Shown: positions 15,515 through 30,900 of the stretch, piece by piece
How positions within the stretch are numbered: the stretch's first letter is position 1
Layout: each line of letters opens with the position of its first letter
DNA from: Rhizobium sp. Root483D2
Lineage (GTDB): Bacteria > Pseudomonadota > Alphaproteobacteria > Rhizobiales > Rhizobiaceae
Assembly: GCF_001426685.1 (NCBI RefSeq)
Contig: NZ_LMFB01000018.1
Coordinates: 37,149-101,148, forward strand
DNA length: 64,000 nt
Direction: 5' to 3'
The notes under the pieces: generated by a model
What the model saw: the letters and a program-made list of their open reading frames with translations, nothing else
What the model was told of the DNA's origin: nothing
Databases searched by the model: none
Translations under genes and position numbers: made by a program

Positions 15515-17167
15515 CTATCCGAACAGCACCATGCTCGCCCGCAGCGTCACCCAGACGCCCCAAAGCATCGGGATGCCGACTATCGCCCAGGCGATCAGGG
15601 CCTTGCCATCGAAGCCGCCCGTGCCGATGCCGAAGGAGCCGGTCGGGCCGGCATTGGCCGCGGCGGTCTTGGCCTGCAAGGCTGCCACTTCCTCGTCCTT
15701 CATGAACCACTTGTCCGAGAGCGGCCGCACCAGCGCATTGGCAATCAGGCCGAGCGCCAGCATTCCGGCGAGGATGTACATCGTGCCGGTGTAGAGTTCC
15801 GGTCCGGGGGCGACGCCGGCCGAGATCTGCGCTTCGCGGATATAGTTGACCACAACCGGGCCGACGATCCCTGCCGTTGCCCAGGCCGTCAGCAGCCGCC
15901 CATGGATGGCGCCGACGAACTGGGTGCCGAAGATGTCGGCGAGATAGGCGGGAATGGTCGCAAAGCCACCGCCATACATCGACAGGATGATGCCGAAGGC
16001 CAGCACGAACAGCGCCTTGTTGCCAAGGCCGGCCAGCGTGGGAGCCAGCGCATAGAGCACGATGCCGAGCACGAAGAAGCAGAAATACGTGTTCTTGCGG
16101 CCGATCTTGTCCGACAGCGATGCCCAGAAGAAGCGGCCACCGATATTGAACAGCGAGAGAAGCCCGGTAAAGCCTGCGGCAATCGCCGCGATCGAAGCCT
16201 TTTGCGTAGTGTCGAGATCGGCAAAGGCGACATCCGGCAGGCCGATCAGCGAGCCCGCGAAAATCTCCTGCAGCATGGGCGAGGCCATGCCGATGACGCC
16301 GATACCGGCCGAGACATTGAGGCAGAGCACGGCCCAGATGAGCCAGAACTGCTTTGTCTTATGAGCATCGCGCAGATGCACGTGCTTGGTGGTGATCATC
16401 GTGCTCTTGGAGGCGGGGGCAGTCCAGCCTTCCGGACGCCAGCCGGCCGGCGGGATGCGGTACCCGAAGGCGCCGCCCATCATGAAGACGAAATAGATGA
16501 TGGCCATGACGACGAAGGTCTGCCAGACGCCGGCCGACATATCGGTGCGGAAATAGGTCATCAAAAGGTTGGCAAGCGGCGCGCCGATCATTGCGCCGCC
16601 ACCAAAACCCATGATCGCCATGCCCGTCGCCATGCCGCGCCGGTCGGGAAACCATTTGATCAGGGTGGACACCGGGGAGATATAGCCAAGGCCCAGACCG
16701 ATACCGCCGATGACACCGGCGCCAAGCCACATCAGCCAGAGCTGGTGGGTGTAGACGCCAAGGGCAGCAACGAGAATGCCGCCGCACCAGCAGCAGGCCG
16801 AGACGAAACCGGCTTTGCGCGGCCCCGCACGCTCCAGCCAGCCGCCCCAGATGGCGGCCGAACAGCCGAGAAGCACGAAGAACAGTGTGTAGATCCAGCC
16901 GAGATCGGAGACACGCCAGTTGCAGCTGGTGGTGAACAGGGCGGAGGCAAGGTTCATGGTGGAGCAGGTATCGGGCGCGGGGCCGATGGCCTTGGACAAA
17001 GGCAGCCAGAAGACGCTGAAGCCATAGGCCATGCCGATGCAGAGATGGATGGCAAGCGCTGCGGGCGGTACGAGCCAGCGATTGAAGCCCGGTTGAGCGA
17101 TGATGCGCTCGCGGTCGAGCAGGCCGACCGAGCCTCCATTGCCAAGGGTTTGCGTTGTTGCTGCCAT
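15515..17167 (-). CDS. OFA family major facilitator superfamily transporter
   Basis: 550 residues with about 12 hydrophobic segments. The N-terminal region (RWLVPPAALAIHLCIGMAYGFSVFWLPLSKAIG) and the loop IKWFPDRRGMATGMAIMGFGGGA are typical of the OFA group, which includes the oxalate/formate antiporter OxlT; actual substrates in the group vary among small carboxylates. GGAGGAAC lies before ATG 17167. Upstream sits a sigma-54 promoter and two palindromes, and the neighbouring operon encodes an NtrC-type regulator and its kinase, so expression is probably induced by an external carboxylate. A link with the formate dehydrogenase cluster 8 kb away is possible but only inferred. Confidence 0.82.
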   Translation of the reverse strand: MAATTQTLGNGGSVGLLDRERIIAQPGFNRWLVPPAALAIHLCIGMAYGFSVFWLPLSKAIGPAPDTCSTMNLASALFTTSCNWRVSDLGWIYTLFFVLLGCSAAIWGGWLERAGPRKAGFVSACCWCGGILVAALGVYTHQLWLMWLGAGVIGGIGLGLGYISPVSTLIKWFPDRRGMATGMAIMGFGGGAMIGAPLANLLMTYFRTDMSAGVWQTFVVMAIIYFVFMMGGAFGYRIPPAGWRPEGWTAPASKSTMITTKHVHLRDAHKTKQFWLIWAVLCLNVSAGIGVIGMASPMLQEIFAGSLIGLPDVAFADLDTTQKASIAAIAAGFTGLLSLFNIGGRFFWASLSDKIGRKNTYFCFFVLGIVLYALAPTLAGLGNKALFVLAFGIILSMYGGGFATIPAYLADIFGTQFVGAIHGRLLTAWATAGIVGPVVVNYIREAQISAGVAPGPELYTGTMYILAGMLALGLIANALVRPLSDKWFMKDEEVAALQAKTAAANAGPTGSFGIGTGGFDGKALIAWAIVGIPMLWGVWVTLRASMVLFG

Positions 17168-17298
17168 GTTCGTTGTTCCTCCATTCGCCCCTGTCCCGTT
17201 GGGCGTTCCCAGTGAATGTCATGTCGGGGAATGGCCGAGTGTATCGCCCACACGCGCTCCTCCACGCGTTGGTCGCCCTGCCGTCCCTACCATCACAG

Positions 17299-17315
17299 AG
17301 CAATCGGCGTGCCAA
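17299..17315 (-). promoter_or_regulatory. Sigma-54 (-24/-12) promoter of the OFA transporter
   Basis: On the minus strand the sequence is TTGGCACGCCGATTGCT, which matches TGGCACG-N4-TTGCT with the invariant GG and GC exactly 12 bases apart. Transcription would start near 17288, about 120 bases before the transporter ATG. The neighbouring gene encodes a GAFTGA-containing activator of the type that works only with sigma-54. Confidence 0.88.
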
Positions 17316-17366
17316 ATCGGGCCATTCAAGATTTCAATGACTTATGGCGGAGGCGTTACAGGTATT

Positions 17367-17402
17367 GGACAAAATGTCCGGACGGCAGCGGACATTTTGT
17401 CC
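17367..17402. promoter_or_regulatory. Paired palindromic upstream activator sites
   Basis: GGACAAAATGTCC (17367-17379) and GGACATTTTGTCC (17390-17402) are each near-palindromic (GGACA-N3-TGTCC) and are exact reverse complements of each other, centred 23 bp apart and about 85 and 108 bp upstream of the predicted sigma-54 start. Position and paired symmetry fit enhancer sites for the adjacent NtrC-type regulator. They begin 3 bp after the sensor kinase stop; absence of a T run argues against a terminator. Confidence 0.75.
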
Positions 17403-17405
17403 GGT

Positions 17406-19409
17406 TCAGTTGGCTTCCGGCAGCCAGATGGAAAAGGTCGTGCCTTCTCCGGGCTCGCTTTGAACGGAGATCTGGCCGTTCTGGCGCGCGATCAGGCGCT
17501 GGCTGATGGAGAGGCCAAGGCCCGTTCCTTCCTGCCGCTTTGTGGTAAAAAACGGATCAAAGATCTTGCCGATCAGCTCCGGCGTCATGCCGACGCCGGT
17601 ATCTGCGATGTCGATGCGCACGCCGGGCCGCGTCTCAAAATCCTGATCCAGAATGCGGATCGTCAACACGCCGCCTTTCGGCATGGCATGTATGGCATTG
17701 ACGATCAGGTTGACCGCCACCTGCTGCAGTTCGGTGCGGTTCATCAGCACCAGCCGCCGGGCGCGGTCGTCGCGGACGAGCTTGATCTCGGCCTTGTGGA
17801 GCAGATGCTGGACCAGCGGCAGGCAGTCGGAGATCACGTCCGATGGCGCATGGCGCTCGACATAGCCGGCATATTCCTCGGGCTTGGCAAATTGCAGGAG
17901 CTTGGTGACGATCTGGCTGATGCGGTGGATCTGTTCGTCGATCAGCCGGAACTCGACCTTTGCTTCGTCTGCCCTTGCGCCGAGAACGCTGCGGACCACA
18001 TCGAGATTGCCCTGGATGACCGCGATCGGATTGTTGATCTCATGGGCGACGCCGGCGGTGATCTCGCCGATGGCGGCGAGTTTTTCAGACATGATCAGCT
18101 GCTTGGTGGTCGCCTCGATCTGACGGTTGGCCAGCTCCAGTTCGCTGGTGCGCTCGGCCACGCGGTCGTTCAATTCCTCGTTCCATTGCCGCAGCTCGCG
18201 GTCGCGCTGCTGCAGCTGATCGAGCAACCCGTCGAGATGCAGCGCCACCCGGCCGATCTCGTCGCTTGCCGCCCTCAACTCTGTGCGGGCGCCCATATTG
18301 CCGCCTTCGACACGGGTGATGGTGTCGCTCATGCGTTCCAGCGGCTTGAAGATCGCCCGCGCCCAGCGCAGGAAGATCGGCACGCTGGCGGCGGTGACCG
18401 CCAGAAAGGCGAGCACGATGGTGAGCAGCGTCGTGTATTTCGCCTGGCGGAAGGGCGTCTCCAGAAAGCCGACATAGAGCATGCCGACGCGCTTGCCAAA
18501 ACTATCGACGATCGGCTCATAGGCCGAGATGTACCAGTCGTTGACGACAAAGGCGCTGTCGAGCCAGGTGCGGCCCTCGCCCAAAACGGCTGTGCGCACG
18601 GCAGCGGACACGCGGGTTCCCAGCGCCCGGCGATCCTCGAACAGGCGCACATTGGTGCTGACGCGCACGTCATCGAGAAACAGCGTCGCGGTGCCCTTGC
18701 TGCCCTCCGGCAGGCTCGCCTCACGGTAGACGAGATCATTGATGGTATCGATGAAGACGAGATTCTGATTGAGCAGGATGCCGCCGACCAATGCGGCCTT
18801 GACGCTGTTCGCAAGTGTTACCGGACTGGCCGAATGCACGGTCATGCCGCGCGTCTCGCTCTTGCGGCCGGTCGGCACGGCGTTCGGGGTTTCGACCAGC
18901 TCGATGCGGGCGCGCTCGGCCAAGGCGGGCGACAGTGCGGCCAGCTGCTCGCTGGAGAAGATATCGATGGCGGTCGAGGAGGTGCCATTCAGTGCTGCGG
19001 CCACGACCGGCCACGCGCCCTGTGCCGGCCCTTGCGCATGCAGCGGCCGTCCCTCTTCATCGACAAGCATCAGGAAGTCGAGGCCGAGCGTCCGGCGGCT
19101 GTCTTCCAGGAAATTTGGCAGGCCTGCTGCGTCACCGCCGCCCACCGTGTCGCGAAATGCGGCGGAGACGGCCAGCGCCTGGATATGCTCGCCGGTATTT
19201 TCGAGGATGCGGGAGAGATATTGATGGGCGATGGTCAGGTCGCCATTGACCTTGGTGATCAGCAGCGCATCGAATTTTGCGTTCCAGCGGACAATGGCGA
19301 TACCCAGCAGCAGCGGCAGGATGACCAGCGTCGGCAGGAGCGCGATGGCCAGAAGCCGGAAGCGGATGGAGCGGGCAGGGCGCTCCTTAAGGCGAGGCTG
19401 TTCAGCCAT
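17406..19409 (-). CDS. Membrane sensor histidine kinase with periplasmic Cache-type domain (DctB-like)
   Basis: 667 residues from ATG 19409, whose ATGGCTGA overlaps the response regulator stop by 8 bases. Transmembrane segments at about 20-41 and 325-348 enclose a roughly 280-residue periplasmic region that looks like a Cache sensor. HAMP (about 349-400), a coiled coil, the H box AHEINNPIAV with phospho-His near 456, N box near 566-572, G1 DTGVGM, F FDPFFTTK and G2 GTGLGLS are all present. The kinase should sense an extracellular small molecule, probably a carboxylate, and phosphorylate the partner regulator. DctB itself senses C4-dicarboxylates; the ligand here is unknown. Confidence 0.88.
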   Translation of the reverse strand: MAEQPRLKERPARSIRFRLLAIALLPTLVILPLLLGIAIVRWNAKFDALLITKVNGDLTIAHQYLSRILENTGEHIQALAVSAAFRDTVGGGDAAGLPNFLEDSRRTLGLDFLMLVDEEGRPLHAQGPAQGAWPVVAAALNGTSSTAIDIFSSEQLAALSPALAERARIELVETPNAVPTGRKSETRGMTVHSASPVTLANSVKAALVGGILLNQNLVFIDTINDLVYREASLPEGSKGTATLFLDDVRVSTNVRLFEDRRALGTRVSAAVRTAVLGEGRTWLDSAFVVNDWYISAYEPIVDSFGKRVGMLYVGFLETPFRQAKYTTLLTIVLAFLAVTAASVPIFLRWARAIFKPLERMSDTITRVEGGNMGARTELRAASDEIGRVALHLDGLLDQLQQRDRELRQWNEELNDRVAERTSELELANRQIEATTKQLIMSEKLAAIGEITAGVAHEINNPIAVIQGNLDVVRSVLGARADEAKVEFRLIDEQIHRISQIVTKLLQFAKPEEYAGYVERHAPSDVISDCLPLVQHLLHKAEIKLVRDDRARRLVLMNRTELQQVAVNLIVNAIHAMPKGGVLTIRILDQDFETRPGVRIDIADTGVGMTPELIGKIFDPFFTTKRQEGTGLGLSISQRLIARQNGQISVQSEPGEGTTFSIWLPEAN

Positions 19410-20763
19410 TCCAGACAGCGCATTTGCGGTCGATGGTCTTGCGCGAAATGCCAAGGCGGCGGGCCGCCTCATCGCGGTTGCCGCCTGTTTCCTCCAGAAC
19501 GGCCAGGATATGCCGCCGCTCGACATCGTCCAGCGTTTCGCCGGCGAGTTCGGCCTCCTGCGTTCGGCCGCCGCGGAAATCATCGGGAAATTTGCCGAGG
19601 ATCAGCGAGCGCTCGATGAGATTGCGCAGCTCGCGGACATTGCCGGGCCAGGCGTAGCGCGTAAGCGTCGCGCGCACCGGCGCGTCGATCGGCACCGGCG
19701 GCATCCCCAGCTGTTGCGACAGTTTCTGCATAAACAGGTCTGCCAGTTCCTGCACGTCATTGCCCCGGTCGCGCAGCGGCGGCAGATGGAGCTGCATGAC
19801 GTTGATGCGATAGAACAGATCGGCGCGGAAACGGCCTTTCTCGACCTCCTTCTGCAGGTCGGCATTGGTGGCGAATACGAAGCGCAGATCAACCGGAACC
19901 TCGCGCTCCGAACCGACAGGCCGGACGCGGCGGTCTTCGATGACGCGCAGCAGCTTGCTTTGCGTGGCCAGCGGCATTTCGCCGATCTCATCGAGAAACA
20001 GCGTGCCGCCCTGCGCATGGGTGAACAGGCCTTCGCGGTTGTTTTCGGCGCCGGTAAAGGCCCCCCTGATATGGCCGAACAGCTCGGTTTCGATCATGTC
20101 GGCGGGAATGGCGGCGCAATTGACCGGGACGAACGGCTTGTCTACCCGGTCGGACAAGGTGTGCAGCGAGCGGGCGGCAACTTCCTTGCCCGTGCCGGAT
20201 TCGCCGGTCAAAAGCACGGAGGTCGGCAGGGGGGCGACGCGCGCGATTGTATCGCGGACATCGCCGATCACCCGCGAGGTTCCGATCAGCCGGTCACGCA
20301 GCAGGATATGATCGGACGTAGCCTTCAGCTCGTAGCGCAGCACGAAATTTTCGCGCTGCAGCCGCATGCGATCAAGGCAGCGGGCGACGGAATTGAGGAT
20401 CTGGTTGGAGCGGAAGGGTTTCAAGACAAAATCGACGGCACCGGCACGCAGCGCCTGGATCGCGGTTTCAAGGTCGGCAAAGGCGGTGATCAGGATGGCT
20501 TCGGCAAAAAAGCCGATGGCGCGCTGCTCGGCCAGCCAATCGACGCCGTTCTTGCCGGGCATAATATTGTCGAGGATCACCACGTCGAAATGATGCGCGT
20601 CGAGCTTGCGGGAGGCCTCGTCGGTATCGGCCGCCTCCTCGATCCGTTTGCAGCGCGGACCGAGCGTGCGGACGAGGAAGTTGCGCATGCCCGGCTCGTC
20701 ATCGACGATCAGAATGGATGCCTGCGCAAGCCACGGACCGAACTCGGGATCCCGCTCCGGCAT
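19402..20763 (-). CDS. Sigma-54-dependent response regulator, NtrC/DctD type
   Basis: 453 residues from ATG 20763; a TTG at 20793 would add ten residues. The receiver domain carries the phospho-Asp in DVVILDNIMP (residue 65). The AAA+ domain has Walker A GESGTGKE, the sigma-54 contact loop GAFTGA and Walker B GGTLFLDEIGEMP; the C-terminus has a Fis-type helix-turn-helix (GGNRDEAARRLGISRKTIDRK). It forms an operon with the overlapping kinase gene. Its likely target is the OFA transporter gene directly downstream, which has a sigma-54 promoter and paired palindromes. No clear Shine-Dalgarno sequence decides the start. Confidence 0.9.
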   Translation of the reverse strand: MPERDPEFGPWLAQASILIVDDEPGMRNFLVRTLGPRCKRIEEAADTDEASRKLDAHHFDVVILDNIMPGKNGVDWLAEQRAIGFFAEAILITAFADLETAIQALRAGAVDFVLKPFRSNQILNSVARCLDRMRLQRENFVLRYELKATSDHILLRDRLIGTSRVIGDVRDTIARVAPLPTSVLLTGESGTGKEVAARSLHTLSDRVDKPFVPVNCAAIPADMIETELFGHIRGAFTGAENNREGLFTHAQGGTLFLDEIGEMPLATQSKLLRVIEDRRVRPVGSEREVPVDLRFVFATNADLQKEVEKGRFRADLFYRINVMQLHLPPLRDRGNDVQELADLFMQKLSQQLGMPPVPIDAPVRATLTRYAWPGNVRELRNLIERSLILGKFPDDFRGGRTQEAELAGETLDDVERRHILAVLEETGGNRDEAARRLGISRKTIDRKCAVWNG

Positions 20764-20937: not shown

Positions 20938-21642
20938 CTACCGCACTTTCAGGCCCAGTTCCGCAAGCAGCTGTCCTGCCTGATCGCGCGAGATGGTTGC
21001 GCCCTTGAATTGCTTGGCATTCAAAAGGCGGATGCCGCCGAGGTCGGCGCCGCGAAGGTCGGCGCCGTCAAAGCGGCAGTCGACGAGATTGGCGTCGCGC
21101 AGGCTGCAATCCTGAAAGATCGCGTCACGGAAATCGCATTTCTTGAGGTCCGCCATCTGGAAATCGAGCCCATTGAGACGGGCCTTTCGAAACGACAGGC
21201 CGGGCAGGCGGGCGTCGGCTAGGCGGGTTTCTGTGAAGGTGAGATTGAGGGTCTTTGCTTCCGAGAGGTTCGCGCCGGTCAGTTTACTGCGGACGATCTC
21301 AGCCCCGGTCAGCGTCGCGCCCCGGAAATTGCTGTTGTTGAAGTCGCATCCCTCGATCCGGCTTTCGGAGAGATCGCAGCCGGTAAAATCGGCAAGGCCG
21401 CCCTTGCAGCTCTTCCAGACAGTGCCGCTGAGCTTTGCGCCGGTGAAATGGACCTGCTTGACGTTGCAATCCTCAAGGATCCAGCCCTCGAGCATCAGGC
21501 GTGAAAGATCAGCCTCCTCCAGCACGCAGGCTGTGAGCCGGTGCGGGAGACCGGTTTTCGAAAGGCGTTCGACCGCGTTGCGATCAAGCTCGCTGTTCTC
21601 GATGATATTGGCCGGTAGAATCGGGTCCGGGGCGGTGGCCAT
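20938..21642 (-). CDS. Pentapeptide-repeat protein
   Basis: 234 residues from ATG 21642, preceded by AAGGA with an 8-base spacer. From about residue 40 almost the whole chain follows the A(D/N)LXX pattern with the central residue Leu or Phe (for example ADFTGCDLSESRIEGCDF), predicting a right-handed quadrilateral beta-helix. Qnr and MfpA proteins of similar length mimic DNA and protect gyrase, but most members have unknown roles and no Qnr-specific loop was identified. No signal peptide is visible. It stands alone between the two-component operon and the frameshifted reductase. Confidence 0.82.
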   Translation of the reverse strand: MATAPDPILPANIIENSELDRNAVERLSKTGLPHRLTACVLEEADLSRLMLEGWILEDCNVKQVHFTGAKLSGTVWKSCKGGLADFTGCDLSESRIEGCDFNNSNFRGATLTGAEIVRSKLTGANLSEAKTLNLTFTETRLADARLPGLSFRKARLNGLDFQMADLKKCDFRDAIFQDCSLRDANLVDCRFDGADLRGADLGGIRLLNAKQFKGATISRDQAGQLLAELGLKVR

Positions 21643-21869
21643 GTCGCTGTTCCTTGTTGGTGACCGAGGACACATGGCGCAGGACCACTCACCTTGCCGG
21701 CCACTGCTGATCGAACCGGTATCGTGGAAACGCGGCAAGCACCATAGACTGCTGACGGCAGGGACCGGAACCGGGCGAACTTTTTCGGTATGGGCGGCTC
21801 ACCCGGATGCCGGTCTGGCTCAACGGCGGGTGGGCAAATTGTCATGGATCAGCGTAGCCCGGAACGCCG

Positions 21870-22885
21870 TCATCGCGTCCAGCTCCGCGCGGCAAGGCTT
21901 TCGGCGCAATCGATAATGGTTGTCTTGCCGGGGCGCGGCTGGAAACCCAGTACATCGCGTGCCTTTTGCCCAGACAGGAGGAATTTGCGGCCGATCAGGG
22001 GTGCAAGGGGTTTCAGGCTTGGCAGGAAGGGCAGTAACAACCGGACAAGTGCCGTCGGCAACTGGTATTTCGGTGCTTTGCGTCCAAGCTGGCCAGGGCT
22101 TTCGCGCAACGCCCCGGAAATATCGGCCATCCACATGAATTCCGAAGCGGCAATGAAGCGCTCGCCCGCTGAATGTGGCGAGAGCATTGCCTTGAAATGG
22201 ATATCCGCCAGATCGCGGACGTCCACGACCCAAAAACCGAGCTTCGGCATGGCTTTCGGCCGCCCCTCGACGAGATCGGCGATGATCCTGACCGAGCCGA
22301 GATTGTCTTCTGTCAGCACCGGGCCGAAAACCGCGCCGGGAAGGATGGTTGTGAATTCCGTTGCGCCGCCATGTTCTGCCATGAAATCCCATGCCGCCCG
22401 TTCGGCGAGGATTTTCGAGACCCGGTAGGCATCGAATTGCGGGTCATCGGGATCGGCCCAGATCGTTTCGTCGCTGATGCGTCCGGAATCTAGCGGCGGC
22501 CGCGCCGTCGCTGCGGCAGAGGTCATGACCACGCGTTTGACGCCTGCAGCACGGCCGCCTTCAAAACCCTGATCGTGCCGTCGCGTGCCGGGGCGACAAA
22601 CGAATTCCGGTCGCCCTGCGCCCCGCCCCCAAGCGGCGAAGCCACGTGGAGAACGTAATCGCAGCCCGCCATCGCGCTGTCCCAGCCTTCGTCCTGCAAA
22701 AGGTCTGCTACGGCGAAGGACAGCCGTTCGGTGTTTTCGACCACGCGCTTCACCGCATCGCGAATGTCCGGCTCCCGCTTCAGGGCGCGTACCGTGGTGC
22801 GGACGTGGTGGTTCTGCCGAAGCAGTTCGACGATGCACCATATGGCGACATAGCCGGTGCCGCCGGTAACGAGGACTGTTGCCAT
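21870..22885 (-). pseudogene. Frameshifted NAD-dependent epimerase / dihydroflavonol reductase-like gene
   Basis: The N-terminal part starts at ATG 22885 (MATVLVTGGTGYVAIW, a TGxxGxxA cofactor motif) and reads to about 22550 with HVASPLGGG, typical of the extended SDR dihydroflavonol-reductase group. The rest, from about AGVKRVVMTSAAATARPP through YRVSKILAE to the end, is in a different frame. The full span is 1016 bases, one short of a 339-codon gene, so a single-base loss near 22540-22560 fits. Both halves are otherwise well preserved, so this is a recent mutation or a sequencing error. It starts 5 bases after the PmtA-like gene and would be its operon partner. Confidence 0.82.
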
Positions 22886-22890
22886 GACGA

Positions 22891-23529
22891 TTACAGCTGC
22901 GAGGATGAAGGGCTGGCGGCGGCGGCCGGGTGGATCAGACCGGAAATGCCATGCCGCCGGCTGATACGGTAGACCGATGCGGGCGGCAGATTTTGCAAGG
23001 TCGTGCCGATCCGCCTTGCCTTCAGGCCAAGCCGGTCGAGGATCGGCCGGGGCACGGGGCACCGGGGTCCATAGGTAAACTGGTAGAAATTGCCGCCGGT
23101 CCTTATCCGGGAAAAGGCACCATTGAGGATCGACATCACCTTGCGAGGCGACATGGACAGCAGCGGCAAGCCGCTGATCACGGCGCCGGCCTCCTGCGTG
23201 ATCGGCAGCCGTCTGTCTCCAAGATGGGCGGCATCGAGATTGAACACGCTGGCTTGCGGAAATCTCTGCTTCAAAAGGCCGGTGAACTCCGCGCCATATT
23301 CGATCAGGACCAGATCGGCGGGGGAGAGGCCCCTGTCGAGGAGCGCCTTGGTGAAGACCCCGGTTCCCGGACCGAGTTCAATGACAGGTGCGTTTGCCAG
23401 AACGATTTCCTTCGTGATCAAACGGGCGAGAGACTGGCTGGAGGGCGCAATCGCTGCGACGCGGAACGGATCTGACGCCCAAGTCCGGAAGAAATGCCAG
23501 CGATCGGATGGGGTGCATATATGGGTCAA
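22891..23529 (-). CDS. PmtA-like S-adenosylmethionine-dependent methyltransferase
   Basis: 212 residues. SAM motif I is VIELGPGTGVFTKALL (ELGPGTG at 51-57), preceded by the pattern FFRTWASDPFRVAAIAPSSQSLAR and followed by ISGLPLLSMSPRKV and FYQFTYGPRCPVPR, all matching the rhizobial phospholipid N-methyltransferase PmtA, which methylates phosphatidylethanolamine towards phosphatidylcholine. It may be a paralogue with another lipid substrate. The protein is expected to be peripheral to the inner membrane. It is divergent from a TetR gene, with two palindromic operators between them, so repression by that regulator is likely. Confidence 0.75.
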   Translation of the reverse strand: MTHICTPSDRWHFFRTWASDPFRVAAIAPSSQSLARLITKEIVLANAPVIELGPGTGVFTKALLDRGLSPADLVLIEYGAEFTGLLKQRFPQASVFNLDAAHLGDRRLPITQEAGAVISGLPLLSMSPRKVMSILNGAFSRIRTGGNFYQFTYGPRCPVPRPILDRLGLKARRIGTTLQNLPPASVYRISRRHGISGLIHPAAAASPSSSQL

Positions 23530-23584
23530 AGGCAGATCCTCGTTTTCCGTTGGAAACGCTGCAGCGTCGTTGCAGTCGATTGTC

Positions 23585-23629
23585 TACAGCTGTATACTTC
23601 GGAAGCAATGATAAGTCTACAGGTGTAGA
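23585..23629. promoter_or_regulatory. Two palindromic operators between the PmtA-like and TetR genes
   Basis: TACAGCTGTA (23585-23594) is a perfect palindrome and TCTACAGGTGTAGA (23616-23629) a perfect 6-2-6 inverted repeat. They share the CTACA-GN-TGTA core and are centred 33 bp apart, close to three helical turns. Placement in the divergent promoter region is what TetR autorepression usually shows. Confidence 0.78.
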
Positions 23630-23646
23630 TTAAAAGAGGTATCACG

Positions 23647-24228
23647 ATGTTTTGCCGCAAACCGACCCGCTCGCGCGATGCCGCCGCCACGCGCGCGGCG
23701 ATCCTTGAATCAGCGCGTCATGCGTTTGTAACGTCGGGATATGACGGAGCTGGCGTGCGCGATATTGCCAAGGGGGCAGGCGTTACCGCCATGCTGATCA
23801 ATCGTTATTTCGGCTCAAAGGAAGCTTTGTTTGAGGAGGTTTTGGCACGCGCAAACCAGAGCCCGATCATCGCCACCGCAGAAACGCTGCACGCACCCGA
23901 CAGGGCTGCCAGAATCAGCAAGGCGCTGTTGCAGGTCACGCAACCCGGCGCCACGGCACTGGACGGCTTTCTGATCATGTTGCGATCGGCATCCAATGAA
24001 AGGGCGCTGGCGATCGCCCGGAATGTGATCGAGGATCACCACCAGAAAAACGTCAGCCTGGCGCTTTCAGGCGAGGCGGGGCCGCAGAGGGCGGCCGTGC
24101 TCCTGTCGCTTGTGGCCGGAATCCAGATCATGCGCCAAGTCATCGGGCTGGAGGCCTTGACGGAAAATTTCAACCCGGAGCTGGAAAAGGTCCTGCATGG
24201 GCTTGTGAGCCAGCTGGTCGAGGCGTGA
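23647..24228 (+). CDS. TetR family transcriptional regulator
   Basis: 193 residues, AGAGG 7 bases before the ATG. The N-terminal helix-turn-helix is clear (ILESARHAFVTSGYDGAGVRDIAKGAGVTAMLINRYFGSKEALFEEVL, in two parts, about 18-66). The C-terminal ligand domain resembles members that restrain lipid or efflux genes. It probably represses itself and the divergent methyltransferase-reductase pair through the two palindromes upstream. The inducer is unknown. Confidence 0.88.
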   Translation: MFCRKPTRSRDAAATRAAILESARHAFVTSGYDGAGVRDIAKGAGVTAMLINRYFGSKEALFEEVLARANQSPIIATAETLHAPDRAARISKALLQVTQPGATALDGFLIMLRSASNERALAIARNVIEDHHQKNVSLALSGEAGPQRAAVLLSLVAGIQIMRQVIGLEALTENFNPELEKVLHGLVSQLVEA

Positions 24229-24271: not shown

Positions 24272-24610
24272 TCAGGCCTTTTCCGGAATGCTCGGTTCGG
24301 ACAGGGATTCGCCTGCCGCCGTGCCCTTGCCGCCCGGCGCGCCAGCGGCCGCATCGCTGCCGGTGCCGACAGCCTCGGAGCCGGAATAGGGTGGCTTGAT
24401 GATGGCGGCGGCGGAGATGACGAGCGGATCGAAGCCGGCGTCGCCCTGTTCGATCAGCTCAAAGAAAGCCTTGCGCATGCGTGGCTCCCAGAACTTGTTG
24501 ATATGGGTGGCCACGCCCTCGACGCGCTCGTCTTCCGGCTGCGATTTGAAGAAGGTGGCGATCTGGTTGGCCATGCGGACAAGTTTGCCATTGGTGTTAT
24601 CAAGCGACAT
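24272..24610 (-). CDS. fdsD: NAD-dependent formate dehydrogenase delta subunit
   Basis: 112 residues from ATG 24610. The core KLVRMANQIATFFKSQPEDERVEGVATHINKFWEPRMRKAF spans about residues 9-50 and is the FdsD family pattern; a Gly/Ala-rich tail follows. FdsD is needed for an active FdsABG enzyme in other bacteria, probably as a maturation factor. It overlaps the fdhD stop by 11 bases, so it is translated in coupling with it and is the last gene of the cluster. Confidence 0.88.
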   Translation of the reverse strand: MSLDNTNGKLVRMANQIATFFKSQPEDERVEGVATHINKFWEPRMRKAFFELIEQGDAGFDPLVISAAAIIKPPYSGSEAVGTGSDAAAGAPGGKGTAAGESLSEPSIPEKA

Positions 24611-25427
24611 CGGCGATGGCTCCGGATTGAATGCGGTGGGGTTGCGTGAAGATCTCGAAATCGGCGCCGCGCACCAGTGCAATCAGCGTCATCCCCGCCT
24701 CGTCCGCGGTGCGGATGGCAAGGGCCGTTGGTGCCGATATGGCGATGATGAACGGGCTGCCGATGATCGCGGTTTTTTGCACCATCTCGACGGAAACGCG
24801 GCTGGTGACGACAACGGCGCCGGTTGATCCGGCATGCCCGGTCCGGGCCGCAGCCCCTACCAGCTTGTCCAGCGCATTGTGGCGGCCGACATCCTCGCGC
24901 ACGGCGATCAGGCCCTTGCCGGGCACATAGAAGCCTGCGCCATGCACGGCGCGCGTTTCGAAATGCAGCGGCTGCTGGCCGTTGAGGAGGGCGACGGCCT
25001 CGATGATTTCCTGTTGCGACAGCCGCAATGCCGAGGCCGCGACCGACGGCGTCTTGCGCACGGCCTGCTCGATCGATTCGATGCCGCAAAGCCCGCAGCC
25101 GACGGGACCGGCCATGTGGCGGCGGCGCGAGACGAGCGCGTCGTTCTGCTCGTCCTTCAGCATGATCTGCAGGTCGATGCCCTTTTCATCGGCAACGGCC
25201 TCGATCGATTCGATCTCGCCGGGACGGGTGATGATCCCTTCCGTCAGGCTGAAGCCGACGGCAAAATCCTCGAAATCGCCGGGTGTGGCCATCATCACGG
25301 CATGGGTCGAGCCGCCATAGGAAAGCGCGATCGGCGTTTCCTCAGGCACCACGCGTGATCCGGCCGTGAGCTTGCCGCTGCGATGCGCAGTCTCGGAAAC
25401 GGTCTGGGTGAGGTTGAGCGGGGTCAT
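24600..25427 (-). CDS. fdhD: Formate dehydrogenase accessory sulfurtransferase FdhD (FdsC)
   Basis: 275 residues from ATG 25427, preceded by GAGGGAG with an 8-base spacer; a GTG at 25436 overlaps that ribosome binding site and is unlikely. The sulfur-relay cysteine pair lies in GCGLCGIES (about residues 111 and 114), and EDVGRHNALDK is conserved. FdhD passes sulfur to the molybdenum cofactor before insertion into formate dehydrogenase. The ribosome binding site belongs to the edge of a mosaic repeat that starts directly upstream. The gene completes the fdsGBA-C-D arrangement known from other bacteria. Confidence 0.92.
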   Translation of the reverse strand: MTPLNLTQTVSETAHRSGKLTAGSRVVPEETPIALSYGGSTHAVMMATPGDFEDFAVGFSLTEGIITRPGEIESIEAVADEKGIDLQIMLKDEQNDALVSRRRHMAGPVGCGLCGIESIEQAVRKTPSVAASALRLSQQEIIEAVALLNGQQPLHFETRAVHGAGFYVPGKGLIAVREDVGRHNALDKLVGAAARTGHAGSTGAVVVTSRVSVEMVQKTAIIGSPFIIAISAPTALAIRTADEAGMTLIALVRGADFEIFTQPHRIQSGAIADVA

Positions 25428-25435
25428 GCCGCGCA

Positions 25436-25490
25436 CTCCCTCTTCTCCCCAGCGGGGAGAAGGTGGCGCAAAGCGCCGGATGAGGGGGGC
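25436..25490. repeat. RIME-like half element (copy C1) abutting fdhD
   Basis: Hairpin CTTCTCCCC/GGGGAGAAG (25442-25462, 3-base loop) followed by the GCGCCGGATGAGGGGG tail. With copy C2 (25571-25625) it forms an inverted pair around about 80 unique bases. Its outer edge, read on the minus strand as GAGGGAG, is the apparent fdhD ribosome binding site. Confidence 0.78.
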
Positions 25491-25570
25491 GAAGCCACTT
25501 TAGCTTCGTAATCAATTTTACTGTTGAGAGACGAAACCGTGATTATCGGCGTATGCGGAACTGGCCTGCG

Positions 25571-25625
25571 GCCCCCCTCATCCGTCCTTCGGGCACCTTC
25601 TCCCCGCTGGGGAGAAGAGGGAGTT
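25571..25625. repeat. RIME-like half element (copy C2)
   Basis: CCCCCTCATC followed by a hairpin CTTCTCCCC/GGGGAGAAG (25597-25617, loop GCT), in opposite orientation to copy C1. Lies in the 333-base gap between fdsA and fdhD, which otherwise holds no gene. Confidence 0.78.
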
Positions 25626-25645
25626 TGCCGCGCATGCAGCAACCA

Positions 25646-25691
25646 ATCTCCCCCCTTGAGGGGGAGATGTCCCGGAGGGACAGAGGGGGGT
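25646..25691. repeat. Second type of palindromic intergenic repeat
   Basis: ATCTCCCCC/GGGGGAGAT (25646-25668, loop CTTGA) is followed by a small hairpin GTCCC-GGA-GGGAC (25669-25681) and AGAGGGGGGT. Layout resembles the RIME-like blocks but the sequences differ (ATCTCCCCC in place of CTTCTCCCC), so it is probably a related module type. Confidence 0.65.
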
Positions 25692-25759
25692 GCATGCGTC
25701 ACATTCATCATTCTTTTGTTCTTCTGCAGTCGCAGTTTGCCGCAGTTCGGCGTCACCTG

Positions 25760-28639
25760 CTACTCCGCAGCCTCCAGCTTGCCGGAAATCCGGCGGGACT
25801 GGCGGGCTTGTTCGTCGTAGTCGATCTGCCACTGCGAGGGGCCGTTGGACGGCGAGATCTGCACTGCGGTGACCTTATACTCAGGGCAGTTGGTTGCCCA
25901 GTCGGAGAAGTCGGTGGTGATGACGTTGGCTTGCGTCGTCGGGTGGTGGAAGGTGGTGTAGACGACGCCGGTTGCGACGCGATCGGTAATGAGCGCGCGC
26001 AGCGTCGTATCGCCGGAGCGGCTTTGCAGCTTCACCCAGTCGCCATCGCGCACGCCGCGCAGTTCGGCATCGTGCGGGTGGATTTCCAGCCGGTCCTCCT
26101 CATGCCAGACGACATTGTCGGTGCGCCGGGTCTGGGCGCCGACATTGTACTGGCTGAGAATGCGGCCGGTGGTGAGCAGAAGCGGGAAGCGCGGGCCGGT
26201 CTTTTCGTCGGTCGCAACATATTCGGTGCGGATGAACTTGCCCTTGCCGCGCACGAAGCCGTCAATATGCATGATCGGCGATCCGAGCGGCGCCTTCTCG
26301 TTGCAGGGCCACTGTACGGAGCCCATCTTTTCCAGATAGTCGTAGGAGACCATGGCGAAGCTCGGCGTCGTTGCGGCGATCTCGTCCATGATCTCGGAGG
26401 GATGGGCGTAGTTCCAGGCAAGGCCCATCGCCTGCGCCAGCTTCTGCGTCACCTCCCAATCGGCATAGCCGTTGCGGGGCGTCATGACGCGGCGGACGCG
26501 GTTGATGCGGCGTTCGGCATTGGTGAACGTGCCGTCCTTTTCCAGGAAGGTCGAGCCCGGCAGGAAGACATGGGCGTAGTTGGCGGTTTCGTTGAGGAAC
26601 AGGTCCTGCACGACGACACATTCCATGGCGGCAAGGCCGGCCTGAACATGCTTGGTATCGGGGTCGGACTGAAGAATGTCCTCGCCCTGGATATAGATGC
26701 CTTTGAAAGAGCCATCGACGGCGGCGTCCAGCATGTTGGGAATGCGCAGGCCCGGTTCGTTGGAGATGGTGACGCCCCAGAGCTTTTCGAAGGTTTCGCG
26801 GGTCGCATCGTCGGAGACGTGACGATAGCCGGGAAGCTCGTGCGGGAAGGAGCCCATGTCGCAGGCGCCCTGAACATTGTTCTGGCCGCGCAGCGGATTT
26901 ACGCCGACGCCCGTACGGCCGATATTGCCGGTGGCCATGGCGAGGTTGGCAATGCCGATGACAGTGGTCGAGCCCTGGCTATGCTCGGTGACGCCGAGAC
27001 CGTAATAGATCGCGCCATTGCCGCCGGTGGCAAACAGGCGGGCCGCGCCGCGAACCTCTTCGGCGGGAACGCCGGTCAGCTGCTCGATGGCTTCGGGGCT
27101 ATGATGCGGCTCGGACACGAAGGATGCCCAATCCTCGAATTCCGACCAGTCGCAGCGTTCGCGGATGAATGTCTCGTCGAACAGGCCCTCGGTGACGATG
27201 ACATGGGCCAGCGCCGTGACGATCGCGACATTGGTGCCCGGGCGCAGCGGCAGGTGATGCGACGCCTTGATATGCGGCGAGGAAACCATGTCGGTGCGGC
27301 GCGGATCGATGACGATCAGCTTGGCGCCCTGACGCAGGCGCTTCTTCAGGCGCGAGGCAAAGACCGGGTGGCCATCGGTCGGGTTGGCGCCGATGATGAT
27401 AACGACATCGGTAAATTCGACCGAATCGAAATTCTGCGTGCCGGCCGAGGTGCCGAAGGTGGCGCCGAGGCCATAGCCGGTCGGCGAGTGGCAGACGCGG
27501 GCGCAGGTATCGACATTGTTATTGCCGAAGCCGGAGCGGATCAGCTTCTGGACGAGATAGGTTTCCTCGTTGGTGCAGCGCGAGGAGGTGATGCCGCCGA
27601 TGGATTCGCGGCCATATTGATACTGGATGCGGCGGAATTCGCTGGCCGTATGGGCAAGCGCCTCCTCCCAGCTGACTTCACGCCAGGGATCGCTGATCTT
27701 TTCGCGGATCATTGGGTTGAGAACGCGTTCCTTATGGGTCGAATAGCCATAGGCAAAACGGCCCTTGACGCAGGAATGGCCGCGATTGGCCTGTCCGTCT
27801 TTCCAGGGCACCATGCGCACCAGCTCTTCGCCGCGCATCTCCGCCTTGAACGAGCAGCCGACGCCGCAATAGGCGCAGGTGGTGACGACGGAATGTTCGG
27901 GCTGGCCGATGGCGATGACGGATTTCTCGGTCAGCGTCGCCGTCGGGCAGGCCTGGACGCAGGCGCCGCAGGAGACGCATTCCGATTCCAGGAAGTTCTC
28001 GTGCATGCCGGGCGAAACGCGGGAGCCGAAGCCACGGCCCTCAATGGTCAGCGCAAACGTGCCCTGCACCTCTTCACAGGCCCGCACGCAGCGCGAACAG
28101 ACGATACATTTCGAGGGATCATAGGTGAAATAGGGATTGCTTTCGTCCTTCGGCATCCATTTGGCATTGATATCGCCGTTGTTGCGCGCCTTGACGTGGT
28201 TGTCGCCCTCGTAGCCATAGCGCACATCGCGTAGGCCGACGGCACCGGCCATGTCCTGCAGCTCGCAGTCGCCATTGGCAGCACAGGTCAGACAGTCCAG
28301 CGGGTGGTCGGAGATATAGAGTTCCATCACGCCCTTGCGGATGTCCTTCAGACGGCTCGTCTGGGTATGGACGGTGATGCCGGGGGCGACGGGGGTCGTG
28401 CAGGATGCCGGGGTGCCATTGCGTCCCTCGATCTCCACGAGACAGAGGCGGCAGGAGCCGAAGGCATCCACCATGTCGGTGGCGCAGAGCTTTGGCACCT
28501 GGATGCCGGCTTCCATCGAAGCCCGCATGATCGAGGTGCCCTCCGGCACCGTGATCTCGTTGCCATCAATGGTCAGCGTCACCATCTTTTCCGAGCGGGA
28601 GGCGGGTGTGCCGAAGTCGATTTCAGAGACGAGGGGCAT
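25760..28639 (-). CDS. fdsA: NAD-dependent formate dehydrogenase alpha subunit (molybdenum catalytic subunit)
   Basis: 959 residues, AGGAG seven bases before ATG 28639. N-terminal 2Fe-2S cysteines 52, 63, 66 and 80; a His112/Cys116/119/125 cluster site; two 4Fe-4S ferredoxin sets (178, 181, 184, 188 and 221, 224, 227, 231); then the bis-MGD domain with 4Fe-4S cysteines 255, 258, 262 and 290. The molybdenum ligand is Cys383, in CARVCHSPTGYG, followed by His384; it is cysteine, not selenocysteine. The enzyme oxidises formate to CO2 in the cytoplasm and passes electrons to FdsB for NAD+ reduction. Mosaic repeats lie on both sides of the gene. Confidence 0.96.
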   Translation of the reverse strand: MPLVSEIDFGTPASRSEKMVTLTIDGNEITVPEGTSIMRASMEAGIQVPKLCATDMVDAFGSCRLCLVEIEGRNGTPASCTTPVAPGITVHTQTSRLKDIRKGVMELYISDHPLDCLTCAANGDCELQDMAGAVGLRDVRYGYEGDNHVKARNNGDINAKWMPKDESNPYFTYDPSKCIVCSRCVRACEEVQGTFALTIEGRGFGSRVSPGMHENFLESECVSCGACVQACPTATLTEKSVIAIGQPEHSVVTTCAYCGVGCSFKAEMRGEELVRMVPWKDGQANRGHSCVKGRFAYGYSTHKERVLNPMIREKISDPWREVSWEEALAHTASEFRRIQYQYGRESIGGITSSRCTNEETYLVQKLIRSGFGNNNVDTCARVCHSPTGYGLGATFGTSAGTQNFDSVEFTDVVIIIGANPTDGHPVFASRLKKRLRQGAKLIVIDPRRTDMVSSPHIKASHHLPLRPGTNVAIVTALAHVIVTEGLFDETFIRERCDWSEFEDWASFVSEPHHSPEAIEQLTGVPAEEVRGAARLFATGGNGAIYYGLGVTEHSQGSTTVIGIANLAMATGNIGRTGVGVNPLRGQNNVQGACDMGSFPHELPGYRHVSDDATRETFEKLWGVTISNEPGLRIPNMLDAAVDGSFKGIYIQGEDILQSDPDTKHVQAGLAAMECVVVQDLFLNETANYAHVFLPGSTFLEKDGTFTNAERRINRVRRVMTPRNGYADWEVTQKLAQAMGLAWNYAHPSEIMDEIAATTPSFAMVSYDYLEKMGSVQWPCNEKAPLGSPIMHIDGFVRGKGKFIRTEYVATDEKTGPRFPLLLTTGRILSQYNVGAQTRRTDNVVWHEEDRLEIHPHDAELRGVRDGDWVKLQSRSGDTTLRALITDRVATGVVYTTFHHPTTQANVITTDFSDWATNCPEYKVTAVQISPSNGPSQWQIDYDEQARQSRRISGKLEAAE

Positions 28640-28701
28640 GGAGGGTCTCCTGCGTGAATGTCGCGGCGATATTTCTGTTGTGGGCGCGAGCGATGTGGCA
28701 C

Positions 28702-28832
28702 CTCTTCTCCCCGGCGGGGAGAAGGTGGCGCGTCGCGCCGGATGAGGGGGGCGAAGCCACGAATTGGAGGAAAGACCCCCTCATCGCCTCACTGCGTTCG
28801 GCACTTCTCCCCGCTGGGGAGAAGAGGGAGCA
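28702..28832. repeat. RIME-like mosaic element (copy D, complete) between fdsB and fdsA
   Basis: Hairpins at 28704-28724 and 28804-28824 (CTTCTCCCC/GGGGAGAAG, 3-base loops) flank GATGAGGGGG (28741-28750) and CCCCCTCATC (28776-28785). The architecture is the same as copy A. It sits in the 228-base gap inside the fds cluster. Confidence 0.8.
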
Positions 28833-28867
28833 AGCCGCTCGGTCCGTGTGGATAGGAAATTTCCGGA

Positions 28868-30424
28868 TCATTCCGCCGCCTCCACCAGAGGTGCCGGCCG
28901 GAAATCGTCCGGGAAGTGGTTCATCGCACTGGTCACCGGATAGGGTGTGAAGCCGCCGAGTGCGCAGAGCGAGCCGAATTTCATCGTGTTGCAGAGGTCG
29001 GCGAGCAGGGCGAGGTTCTTCTCGGGCTCGATCCCTTGCGCGATCTTTTCGGCGGTTTCCACGCCGCGGGTCGAGCCGATGCGGCAGGGGGTGCACTTGC
29101 CGCAGCTTTCGATGGCGCAGAATTCCATGGCGAAACGGGCCTGTTTCAGCATGTCGGCGGTGTCGTCGAAGACTGTAATGCCGGCATGGCCGATCAGGCC
29201 GTCCTTGGCTGCAAAGGCCTCGTAGTCGAATGGCGTGTCGAACAGGGCGCGGGGGAAGTAAGCGCCAAGCGGGCCGCCGACCTGCACGGCCTTGACCGGG
29301 CGCCCGCTTGCGGTGCCGCCGCCGATCTCATCGACGATCTGGCCGAGCGTCAGGCCGAAGGCCGCCTCGTACAGTCCACCATGCTTGACGTTGCCCGCGA
29401 TCTGGATCGGGATGGTGCCGCGCGAGCGGCCCATGCCGAAGTCCTTATAAAAGGCCGCGCCCTTGTCCATGATGACGGGTACTGAAGCAAGCGAGATAAC
29501 GTTGTTGATGACGGTCGGACAGTTGAACAGGCCCTTATGCGCCGGCAGCGGCGGCTTGGCGCGCACGATGCCGCGCTTGCCTTCCAGCGAGTTGAGAAGC
29601 GCCGTTTCCTCGCCGCAGACATAGGCGCCGGCGCCGGTGCGGATTTCGATGTCGAAAGCCCGGCCGCAGCCCATCACCGAAGGCCCCAGAATCCCGGCGG
29701 CACGGGCAATGCCGACAGCCTCGGTCATCGTTGCGATGGCGTGCGGATATTCCGAGCGGATATAGACGAAACCCTTGGTGGCGAGGGTTGCAAGACCGGC
29801 GATTGCCATGCCCTCGATCAGCACGAAGGGATCGCCCTCCATGATCATCCGGTCGGCAAAGGTGCCGCTGTCACCCTCGTCGGCGTTGCAGACGATATAT
29901 TTGCGGTCGCCGGCCGTATCGAGAACCGTTTTCCATTTGATGCCGGTCGGGAAGCCTGCGCCGCCGCGGCCGCGAAGGCCGCTTTCGGTGACCTGCGCCA
30001 CCACGTCGGCAGAGGTCATCGCCACGGCCTTGGCCAGGCCCTTCAGGCCGTCATTCGCCTTGTAGTCGTCCAGCGACAGCGGATCGATGATGCCGCAACG
30101 GGCAAAGGTGAGCCGCGTCTGGTTTTTCAGGAACGGCAGGTCCTCGGTCTTCCCGAGACAGAGCGGGTGGTAACTGCCGGTCACAAGGCCCGCATCCAAG
30201 AGAGAGGCAATATCGGAGGTCTTGACCGGACCATAGGCGATGCGGCCTTCAGGCGTTTCCACCTCGACCAAGGGTTCCAGCCAATGCAGGCCGCGCGAGC
30301 CATTTCGCACGATCGTGGCATCAAGGCCGCGCGTGCCGATCTCCTGCGACAATGCCTTGGCAACGCGATCGGCGCCAAGGGCCAATGCTGCTGCATCCTG
30401 GGGAACGAAAATCCGCACGGTCAT
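28868..30424 (-). CDS. fdsB: NAD-dependent formate dehydrogenase beta subunit (FMN/NADH)
   Basis: 518 residues, a fusion-type NuoF homologue: an N-terminal thioredoxin-like segment (about 1-110), then NADH-binding GRGGAGFPTG at 152-161, FMN-site CNADEGDSGTFADR, and 4Fe-4S cysteines 441, 444, 447 and 487. It accepts electrons from FdsA and reduces NAD+. Its ATG overlaps the fdsG stop (ATGA), so the two are translationally coupled. The following fdsA is separated by a mosaic repeat. Confidence 0.95.
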   Translation of the reverse strand: MTVRIFVPQDAAALALGADRVAKALSQEIGTRGLDATIVRNGSRGLHWLEPLVEVETPEGRIAYGPVKTSDIASLLDAGLVTGSYHPLCLGKTEDLPFLKNQTRLTFARCGIIDPLSLDDYKANDGLKGLAKAVAMTSADVVAQVTESGLRGRGGAGFPTGIKWKTVLDTAGDRKYIVCNADEGDSGTFADRMIMEGDPFVLIEGMAIAGLATLATKGFVYIRSEYPHAIATMTEAVGIARAAGILGPSVMGCGRAFDIEIRTGAGAYVCGEETALLNSLEGKRGIVRAKPPLPAHKGLFNCPTVINNVISLASVPVIMDKGAAFYKDFGMGRSRGTIPIQIAGNVKHGGLYEAAFGLTLGQIVDEIGGGTASGRPVKAVQVGGPLGAYFPRALFDTPFDYEAFAAKDGLIGHAGITVFDDTADMLKQARFAMEFCAIESCGKCTPCRIGSTRGVETAEKIAQGIEPEKNLALLADLCNTMKFGSLCALGGFTPYPVTSAMNHFPDDFRPAPLVEAAE

Positions 30425-30900
30425 GCCCGCACCTCCGCAACGAGGTCACGCACCGCATCCGCATCGAGCCGCCCGTGCACCTCGCCGTCGAGCATCGCGG
30501 CGGGTGCGGTGGAACAGAGCCCGAGACAATAGACGGGTTCCAGCGTCACCGCGCCATCGAGCGTCGTCTGGTGGAAATCGATGCCGAGCAGGGATTTTAC
30601 CCGTTCGGCCAGCGCATCGCCGCCCATCGATTGGCACGCTTCTGCCCGGCAGAGCTTGAGCACATGGCGGCCGGCCGGGTGATCGCGATAGTCGTGATAG
30701 AAGGAGACGACGCCGTGAACTTCGGCGCGCGACAGGTTGAGTTCGCGGGCGATGACCGGCAGGGCTTCCTGCGGCACATAGCCGAACTCGGCCTGGATCT
30801 CGTGCAGGATCGGCAGAAGCGGCCCTTCAAGCGACTTCATTTCGCTGACAATATCCAGCGTCCGTTCACCGATATCACGGCTTGATACATGCAGGTTCAA
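30421..30900 (-). CDS. fdsG: NAD-dependent formate dehydrogenase gamma subunit (2Fe-2S)
   Basis: 159 residues, NuoE-like thioredoxin fold. The 2Fe-2S ligands are Cys84 and Cys89 (LCRAEACQSMG) and Cys125 and Cys129 (YCLGLCSTAP). It completes the diaphorase module with FdsB. It is the first structural gene of the cluster; the 211 bases upstream hold a long hairpin and a LysR-type box. Confidence 0.94.
   Translation of the reverse strand: MNLHVSSRDIGERTLDIVSEMKSLEGPLLPILHEIQAEFGYVPQEALPVIARELNLSRAEVHGVVSFYHDYRDHPAGRHVLKLCRAEACQSMGGDALAERVKSLLGIDFHQTTLDGAVTLEPVYCLGLCSTAPAAMLDGEVHGRLDADAVRDLVAEVRA

Follow-up and report, generated by a model that had tools for sequence, protein, structure and literature searches.

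What does the two-component system encoded beside an OFA-type transporter in Rhizobium sp. Root483D2 sense, and which gene does it control? The question arises from a stretch of 64,000 nucleotides (contig NZ_LMFB01000018.1, positions 37,149 to 101,148; hereafter, the window), in which the genes for an NtrC-family response regulator, a sensor histidine kinase and a major facilitator superfamily (MFS) transporter follow one another head to tail, in that order, on the minus strand. Judged from sequence comparisons and predicted structure, these genes almost certainly belong to a conserved sigma-54 two-component circuit having the transporter as its clear local target, and the arrangement as a whole is likely to be a formate-responsive circuit driving that transporter. 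The elements of the proposed circuit are listed below.

19402..20763, minus strand: NtrC-family response regulator, 453 amino acids (Pfam Response_reg, Sigma54_activat, AAA_lid_14 and HTH_8; translation)
17406..19409, minus strand: sensor histidine kinase, 667 amino acids (Pfam sCache_3_3, HAMP, HisKA and HATPase_c)
17390..17402, unstranded: distal palindrome GGACA-N3-TGTCC, centre near -107 (exact pattern match; conserved)
17367..17379, unstranded: proximal palindrome GGACA-N3-TGTCC, centre near -84 (exact pattern match; 23 bases from the distal one)
17299..17314, minus strand: sigma-54 (-24/-12) promoter TGGCACGCCGATTGCT (pattern match; conservation in orthologous loci)
15515..17167, minus strand: OFA-type MFS transporter, 550 amino acids, predicted formate/monocarboxylate carrier (Pfam MFS_1; NCBIfam; PDB relatives)

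The promoter and its paired palindromes

An earlier reading of the window (hereafter, the original prediction) had delimited the three genes and noted that the kinase start and the regulator stop overlap by 8 bases (19402-19409), and a check of the open reading frames agrees on both counts. Its picture of a two-component system facing the transporter was mistaken, all three genes sharing the minus orientation. The regulator consists of a receiver, a sigma-54 AAA+ domain and a Fis-type helix-turn-helix, with Pfam matches exceeding the cut-off, and the predicted GAFTGA motif is present in its translation; these are the domains that define the NtrC family. The kinase had been described as Cache-type, and its sensor indeed matches Pfam sCache_3_3. 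The genome holds a single sigma-54 gene, one member of the kinase family (at E-values up to 1e-60) and one transporter of this type.

The 238 bases between kinase and transporter contain both palindromes, followed by the promoter. The latter, TGGCACG-CCGA-TTGCT (17314-17299, minus strand), is the sole exact match to the TGGCACGNNNNTTGCW pattern in the window and coincides with the sigma-54 promoter that had been predicted before the transporter. The remaining 9 matches in the window have 2 mismatches each, and at up to 2 mismatches the pattern is no more frequent in the window than in shuffled sequences. GGACAAAATGTCC (17367-17379) and GGACATTTTGTCC (17390-17402), corresponding to the two predicted upstream sites, are the only exact GGACA-N3-TGTCC sites in the window. 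Promoter and palindromes stand above chance because they are conserved in other genomes.

This conservation was assessed in the best 80 transporter loci, 71-95% identical to the window transporter. A locus was counted as having the kinase if a kinase match of more than 50% identity ended no more than 700 bases upstream of the transporter, which was the case in 33 loci; by the same criterion the kinase is absent from 47. The sigma-54 promoter was found in all 33 kinase loci (18 exact, 12 with one mismatch and 3 with two), and so were both palindromes (both exact in 24 loci, one mismatch in one of them in 7, and one mismatch in each in 2). None of the 47 loci without the kinase, two of which have fewer than 200 upstream bases (L077, 180; L086, 172), contains the promoter at up to 2 mismatches or a palindrome at up to 1 mismatch; 6 of these 47 loci reach a promoter-like match with 3 mismatches at best, the others one with 4 or 5, and the best palindromes of the 47 have at least 2. 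Conservation before transporter orthologues had been set beforehand as the test of the claim that a self-contained sigma-54 two-component circuit lies upstream of an OFA-type transporter, and the claim withstood it, with conserved promoter and paired sites only where the kinase is present. A -24/-12 target promoter with paired upstream palindromes is also characteristic of NtrC-family regulation, here in the form of predicted sites. On the tree of 81 transporters, presence of the kinase requires 11 changes, 9 of them forced by well-supported branches; by this tree, the system has been gained or lost at least 9 times.

The geometry of the sites is conserved as well. In the window and the 33 loci the distance between the palindrome centres is 20-24 bases (22 in 16 cases and 23 in 11), and in 33 of these 34 the proximal palindrome begins 64-67 bases before the -24 element. 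The exception is L067, where both palindromes are displaced jointly by about 23 bases, that is, two helical turns. Among 11 rows with equal offsets, identity is 48% in the spacer, 91% in the palindromes and 81% in the promoter, the latter two values being inflated by selection, since the rows were found through these same motifs. These data bear on whether the inverted repeats might be a terminator or an RNA hairpin of the kinase operon rather than activator sites. The first palindrome follows the kinase stop codon by 3 bases and the two are able to pair with each other, but the palindromes are not followed by a T run, and a terminator was rejected on that ground. Moreover, the spacing between the palindromes and to the -24 element is held while the spacer drifts, the shift in L067 is a concerted one, and in L144 and L146-L150 similar sites, arranged differently, precede other genes. 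A hairpin or terminator thus appears extremely improbable, and we treat the palindromes as putative activator sites.

Two further kinds of candidate target were considered and rejected. The exact palindrome occurs in 16 places in the 6.04 Mb genome, 2 of them at this locus. One of the 14 outside places came without a locus; none of the 13 that were inspected has a sigma-54-like site (up to 2 mismatches) within 250 bases or a second palindrome at up to 1 mismatch, so that a wider regulon in the same genome, with 0 of 13 exact palindromes having a qualifying promoter, was dropped. Exact TGGCACGNNNNTTGC sites number 13 in the genome, of which the one at this locus was inspected individually. Autoregulation was the other candidate: the 300 bases before the regulator start in the window and the 33 loci contain no palindrome at up to 1 mismatch and no promoter at up to 2, the estimated starts in L017, L033 and L036 being unreliable on account of split or cut frames.

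As for these irregular loci, both the regulator and the kinase frames are split in L017, which was excluded from the kinase alignments because of its broken frame; the regulator frame is split in L036, and in L033 the regulator match stops at residue 396. Sequencing errors or decay could account for each. The L046 contig is labelled as a metagenome-assembled genome of Arenimonas, and its locus is nearly identical to that of Ciceribacter (L045); it is probably a mis-binned contig.

Candidate signal and cargo

In the circuit that we propose, periplasmic formate would bind the Cache sensor of the kinase, which, as its family suggests, would phosphorylate the regulator. The regulator would then bind both GGACA-N3-TGTCC palindromes from one face of the helix, as suggested by the sites, their spacing and their co-occurrence with the kinase, and would drive sigma-54 RNA polymerase at the -24/-12 promoter, the only product seen from which is the downstream OFA-type transporter. 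The transporter, in turn, would take up formate or a similar monocarboxylate to supply an NAD-linked fds formate dehydrogenase, the genes of which lie at a distance of 7 kb. According to the original prediction, the kinase senses the carboxylate carried by the transporter; gene neighbours, sensor relatives in the PDB and three conserved residues narrow this to formate as the most likely compound. Formate is quite probably the signal, considering the neighbours, the nearest solved domains and the conserved residues, and, considering the neighbours and the letters of the binding site, probably the main transporter substrate. The sensor contributes two features.

18426..19292, minus strand: periplasmic sensor region of the kinase, residues 40-328, two-module Cache-like (AlphaFold2 model; Foldseek)
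18615..18665, minus strand: codons R249, T252 and T265, aligned with PacF R142, T145 and T158 (R-x2-T-x12-T spacing)

The AlphaFold2 model of residues 40-328 has a mean pLDDT of 85.8 and a pTM of 0.85. When it was used as a Foldseek query, dCache domains (PctA, LuxQ and DctB) were retrieved at the top; the formate complexes 8py0 and 8py1, by their titles formate-bound receptor domains, followed at ranks 13 and 17 and had the top sequence identity in the list (20%). The alignment of 8py0 with the model extends over 120 columns at 2.5 A. In a profile search of PDB sequences with the sensor, 8py1 (E-value = 3.8e-4) and 8py0 (8.2e-4) were the sole matches under 0.001. At E-values up to 0.01, the family model PF17202 (sCache_3_3) matched 33 of 33 aligned sensors, the window sensor with 99.5 bits against a cut-off of 28.8. 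According to the accessible parts of the respective papers, changes at R142, T145 and T158 of PacF affect formate binding and R115 matters in Atu0526 (PMC12501870), the R115A variant of Atu0526 binds formate more tightly but abolishes chemotaxis (PMC8698456), and an sCache_3_3 domain with these arginine and threonine residues has formate as ligand (PMC12415202). The R-T-T combination is present in the window kinase and in 32 of 32 aligned orthologues (L017 omitted). When the window kinase is taken together with 20 distant kinases, 19 of 21 have RTT and 2 have RTS, the loop differing in length in 8 of the distant kinases.

The second line of evidence comes from the gene neighbourhood.

24272..30900, minus strand: fds formate dehydrogenase cluster (fdsG, fdsB, fdsA, fdhD, fdsD; open reading frames, tblastn synteny with transporter loci)

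The names of these genes are those we presume from their translations; in the window, the cluster is adjoined by a LysR gene. Using tblastn, formate dehydrogenase markers were detected near the transporter in 59 of the 80 loci (18/33 with the kinase and 41/47 without), and, at 45% identity or more, in 10 loci with the kinase and 32 without. The lower-identity cases are mostly from Bradyrhizobium, where the gene in L058 exceeds the formate dehydrogenase alpha cut-off; a match of 24% identity in L066 was left uncounted. Among the loci that lack the kinase, 28 have the start of fdsD no more than 1 kb upstream of the transporter. In L023, L036, L045, L046 and L082, fdsD closely precedes the regulator, and the kinase sits between fdsD and the transporter. 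All 15 kinase loci that have no local marker have fdsA elsewhere (73-92% identical).

The transporter itself is an OFA-like MFS carrier, by family-model scores, rather than a member of the curated family TIGR00890 (143.5 bits, cut-off 374.85); it also falls below the cut-off of the NCBIfam SfMCT model (306.2 bits, cut-off 320). SfMCT and OxlT are its only PDB sequence relatives at E-values up to 0.001. In OxlT, as described in the accessible part of PMC10070484, oxalate is held between Arg272 and Lys355, both of them essential. The substrate arginine is kept as R345, and the lysine is replaced by W429; both residues are invariant in the 12 transporters, of 81, that were aligned. This combination favours a monocarboxylate, and formate is not singled out by it. 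Oxalate was considered a less likely substrate, given the replacement of Lys355 and the genome, which has no oxalyl-CoA decarboxylase over the cut-off; sub-threshold matches are those expected of the wider enzyme family and were also obtained in 13 of 14 control genomes. Residues 523-550 at the C-terminus (15515-15598, minus strand) match NF047966, "MFS transporter small subunit", above the cut-off, representing a fused form of what that model names a small subunit.

Could the same circuit have another small carboxylate (lactate, pyruvate, glyoxylate, acetate or oxalate) as signal and cargo? SfMCT, the closest solved relative of the transporter, is labelled an L-lactate transporter, and other sCache families bind lactate, pyruvate or acetate, as reported in the available portions of PMC12415202 and PMC12501870. 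However, the neighbourhood in the loci checked is that of formate dehydrogenase, not of lactate or oxalate genes, and the solved sensor domains nearest to that of the kinase contain formate; against oxalate stand also the missing second carboxylate-binding residue of OxlT and the lack of an oxalyl-CoA decarboxylase over the cut-off in the genome. We consider this alternative unlikely. Slightly less likely still is that the transporter mainly exports or exchanges formate and that the circuit serves to relieve formate stress. One OFA member, OxlT, does exchange oxalate for formate and thereby releases the latter (PMC10070484, accessible part), but a periplasmic sensor would report formate outside the cell, which fits uptake better, and the transporter gene is grouped with an oxidising, formate-using enzyme.

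Distant relatives of the kinase

At E-values up to 1e-100, the kinase turns up in 9 of the 385 genomes sampled from the class and in 28 of the 398 from the phylum. From about 30 other genomes with the kinase, 20 distant loci were taken for diversity and 10 close ones were omitted. Formate dehydrogenase markers (alpha, beta, gamma, FdhD, FdhE or fds) occur in 13 of the 20, and these or TupAB-like (tungstate-uptake) or MobA (molybdenum-cofactor) genes in 18, compared with 0 of 20 control stretches placed at fixed offsets in the same genomes; the marker set was picked after viewing the neighbours, partly at the same loci, and then applied unchanged to the controls. The two loci without markers, L158 and L159, hold the transporter with both sites. 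Family models were passed by MobA (L144), FdhD (L160), FDH3 beta and formate dehydrogenase gamma (L152) and the alpha subunit in L058, and TupA, TupB (equivalog model), FdhE, the alpha subunit in L141 and a TorD-like protein scored below the cut-off.

In 11 of the 20 distant loci, the promoter (up to 2 mismatches) is accompanied by a palindrome whose GACA-N3-TGTC core is exact. The pair precedes the transporter in L156, L158 and L159 and follows the kinase in L160; in L144 and L146-L150 it is directed at TupAB-like genes, and in L143 at a formate dehydrogenase cluster. In the Bradyrhizobium-like L160 (9398-10427), which lacks the transporter in the vicinity, an FdhE-like gene is preceded by a further sigma-54 promoter and palindrome, both exact, and would be a second kind of target. 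In L144 and L146-L150, a promoter and palindrome accompany TupAB-like and MobA genes that are transcribed away from the kinase operon, which suggests that in these loci the same regulator may control tungstate supply.

These neighbours raise the alternative that the kinase monitors molybdate, tungstate or the state of formate dehydrogenase instead of formate. A TupAB-like tungstate transporter with MobA is encoded divergently beside the kinase operon in 7 of the 20 distant loci (L144-L150), and L154 has TupAB-like genes on the downstream side. Yet solved Cache domains near the kinase sensor contain organic ligands, the product of the regulated gene in the window is an MFS carrier, and the two kinds of neighbourhood have formate dehydrogenase in common. 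The alternative is therefore a very unlikely one, and formate remains our preferred signal. On balance, we lean towards a new family of periplasmic formate-sensing sigma-54 two-component systems in Alphaproteobacteria and other groups of the phylum, with one conserved operator (GGACA-N3-TGTCC or the GACA-N3-TGTC core) and re-wired outputs, namely, a formate transporter in many alphaproteobacteria, formate dehydrogenase maturation by an FdhE-like protein in a single Bradyrhizobium-like genome and, in other genomes, a tungstate importer together with MobA.

Weighing the proposed formate circuit against known systems

Apart from the lactate label of SfMCT, several observations weigh against the formate-responsive circuit. 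The matches of the sensor to 8py0 and 8py1 are weak. R-x2-T-x12-T was likewise found in all 4 of the other sCache_3_3 proteins examined, which lack a full-length sensor match and come from sampled genomes of the same family; because of this, the motif is a mark of a domain family whose tested members bind formate, rather than of this particular kinase, as far as these sequences indicate. It lies, moreover, in the second, membrane-proximal half of the sensor, whereas PacF binds formate in its membrane-distal module (PMC12501870, accessible part). Homologues of formate dehydrogenase alpha are widespread in the class (200 of 385 genomes), and genome co-occurrence was dropped as weak proof: such a homologue is present in 9 of 9 kinase genomes but also in 191 of 376 others (one-sided Fisher p 0.0025 in the class sample). 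Among the 20 distant loci, 9 have no promoter-palindrome pair in the 500 bases before the regulator or the 1000 after the kinase. Finally, the kinase and the sites adjoin, and a single deletion can remove both, so that their joint loss is weaker evidence than conservation; the strength of the argument rests on conservation where the kinase stays.

In rhizobia, the Cache-type kinase DctB and the NtrC-family regulator DctD control a C4-dicarboxylate transporter through a sigma-54 promoter with paired upstream sites. The present circuit has the same architecture, with a carboxylate transporter apparently driven from a sigma-54 promoter with paired upstream sites, and the sensor domain of Vibrio DctB (3by9) is a fold match to the kinase sensor (TMq 0.49). 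The two differ in that the target here is an OFA/MFS-type protein, not a DctA-type C4-dicarboxylate transporter, a PDB search with the sensor profile gave no sequence match to DctB at E-values up to 1, and the neighbourhood is that of formate dehydrogenase; the palindrome is probably different too. The label "DctBD-like" of the original prediction holds for the architecture; for the sensor, DctB was retrieved as a fold match only. Because the target and probably also the sensor differ, we regard the circuit as one that would work like DctBD without being a member of that system.

FhlA, the sigma-54 activator of the E. coli formate hydrogenlyase, senses formate in the cytoplasm and has no partner kinase. 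Formate-responsive control through sigma-54 would be logic shared with it; here, the components are a membrane kinase and a response regulator, the AAA+ part of which matches the NCBIfam FhlA model far under the cut-off. PacF, Atu0526, 8py0 and 8py1 are formate chemoreceptor domains related to the kinase sensor by PDB matches or the aligned R-T-T residues, but they drive chemotaxis, and the protein described here is a histidine kinase. In the literature covered, which excludes most subscription papers, we found no description of an OFA transporter under sigma-54/RpoN control or of a formate-sensing kinase of this kind.

The proposal supplies an orphan two-component system, representatives of which can be found in many proteobacteria, with a candidate ligand, target and operator and reduces the question of what these kinases sense to one binding assay. 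If true, it would explain how rhizobia and their relatives notice outside formate and couple its uptake to oxidation, would add to FhlA a second formate-responsive sigma-54 route, sensing outside instead of inside the cell, and would provide a compact formate-inducible promoter for one-carbon biotechnology. Kinase relatives beside genes of formate-oxidising enzymes elsewhere may reflect a widespread mode of formate sensing.

Four additional genes (20938-24228) separate the formate dehydrogenase cluster of the window from the two-component genes, encoding a pentapeptide repeat protein and oxidoreductase-like, methyltransferase-like and TetR-like proteins, the last three named from their translations only. 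In several relatives, fdsD stands directly before the regulator, at the place occupied by these four genes in the window.

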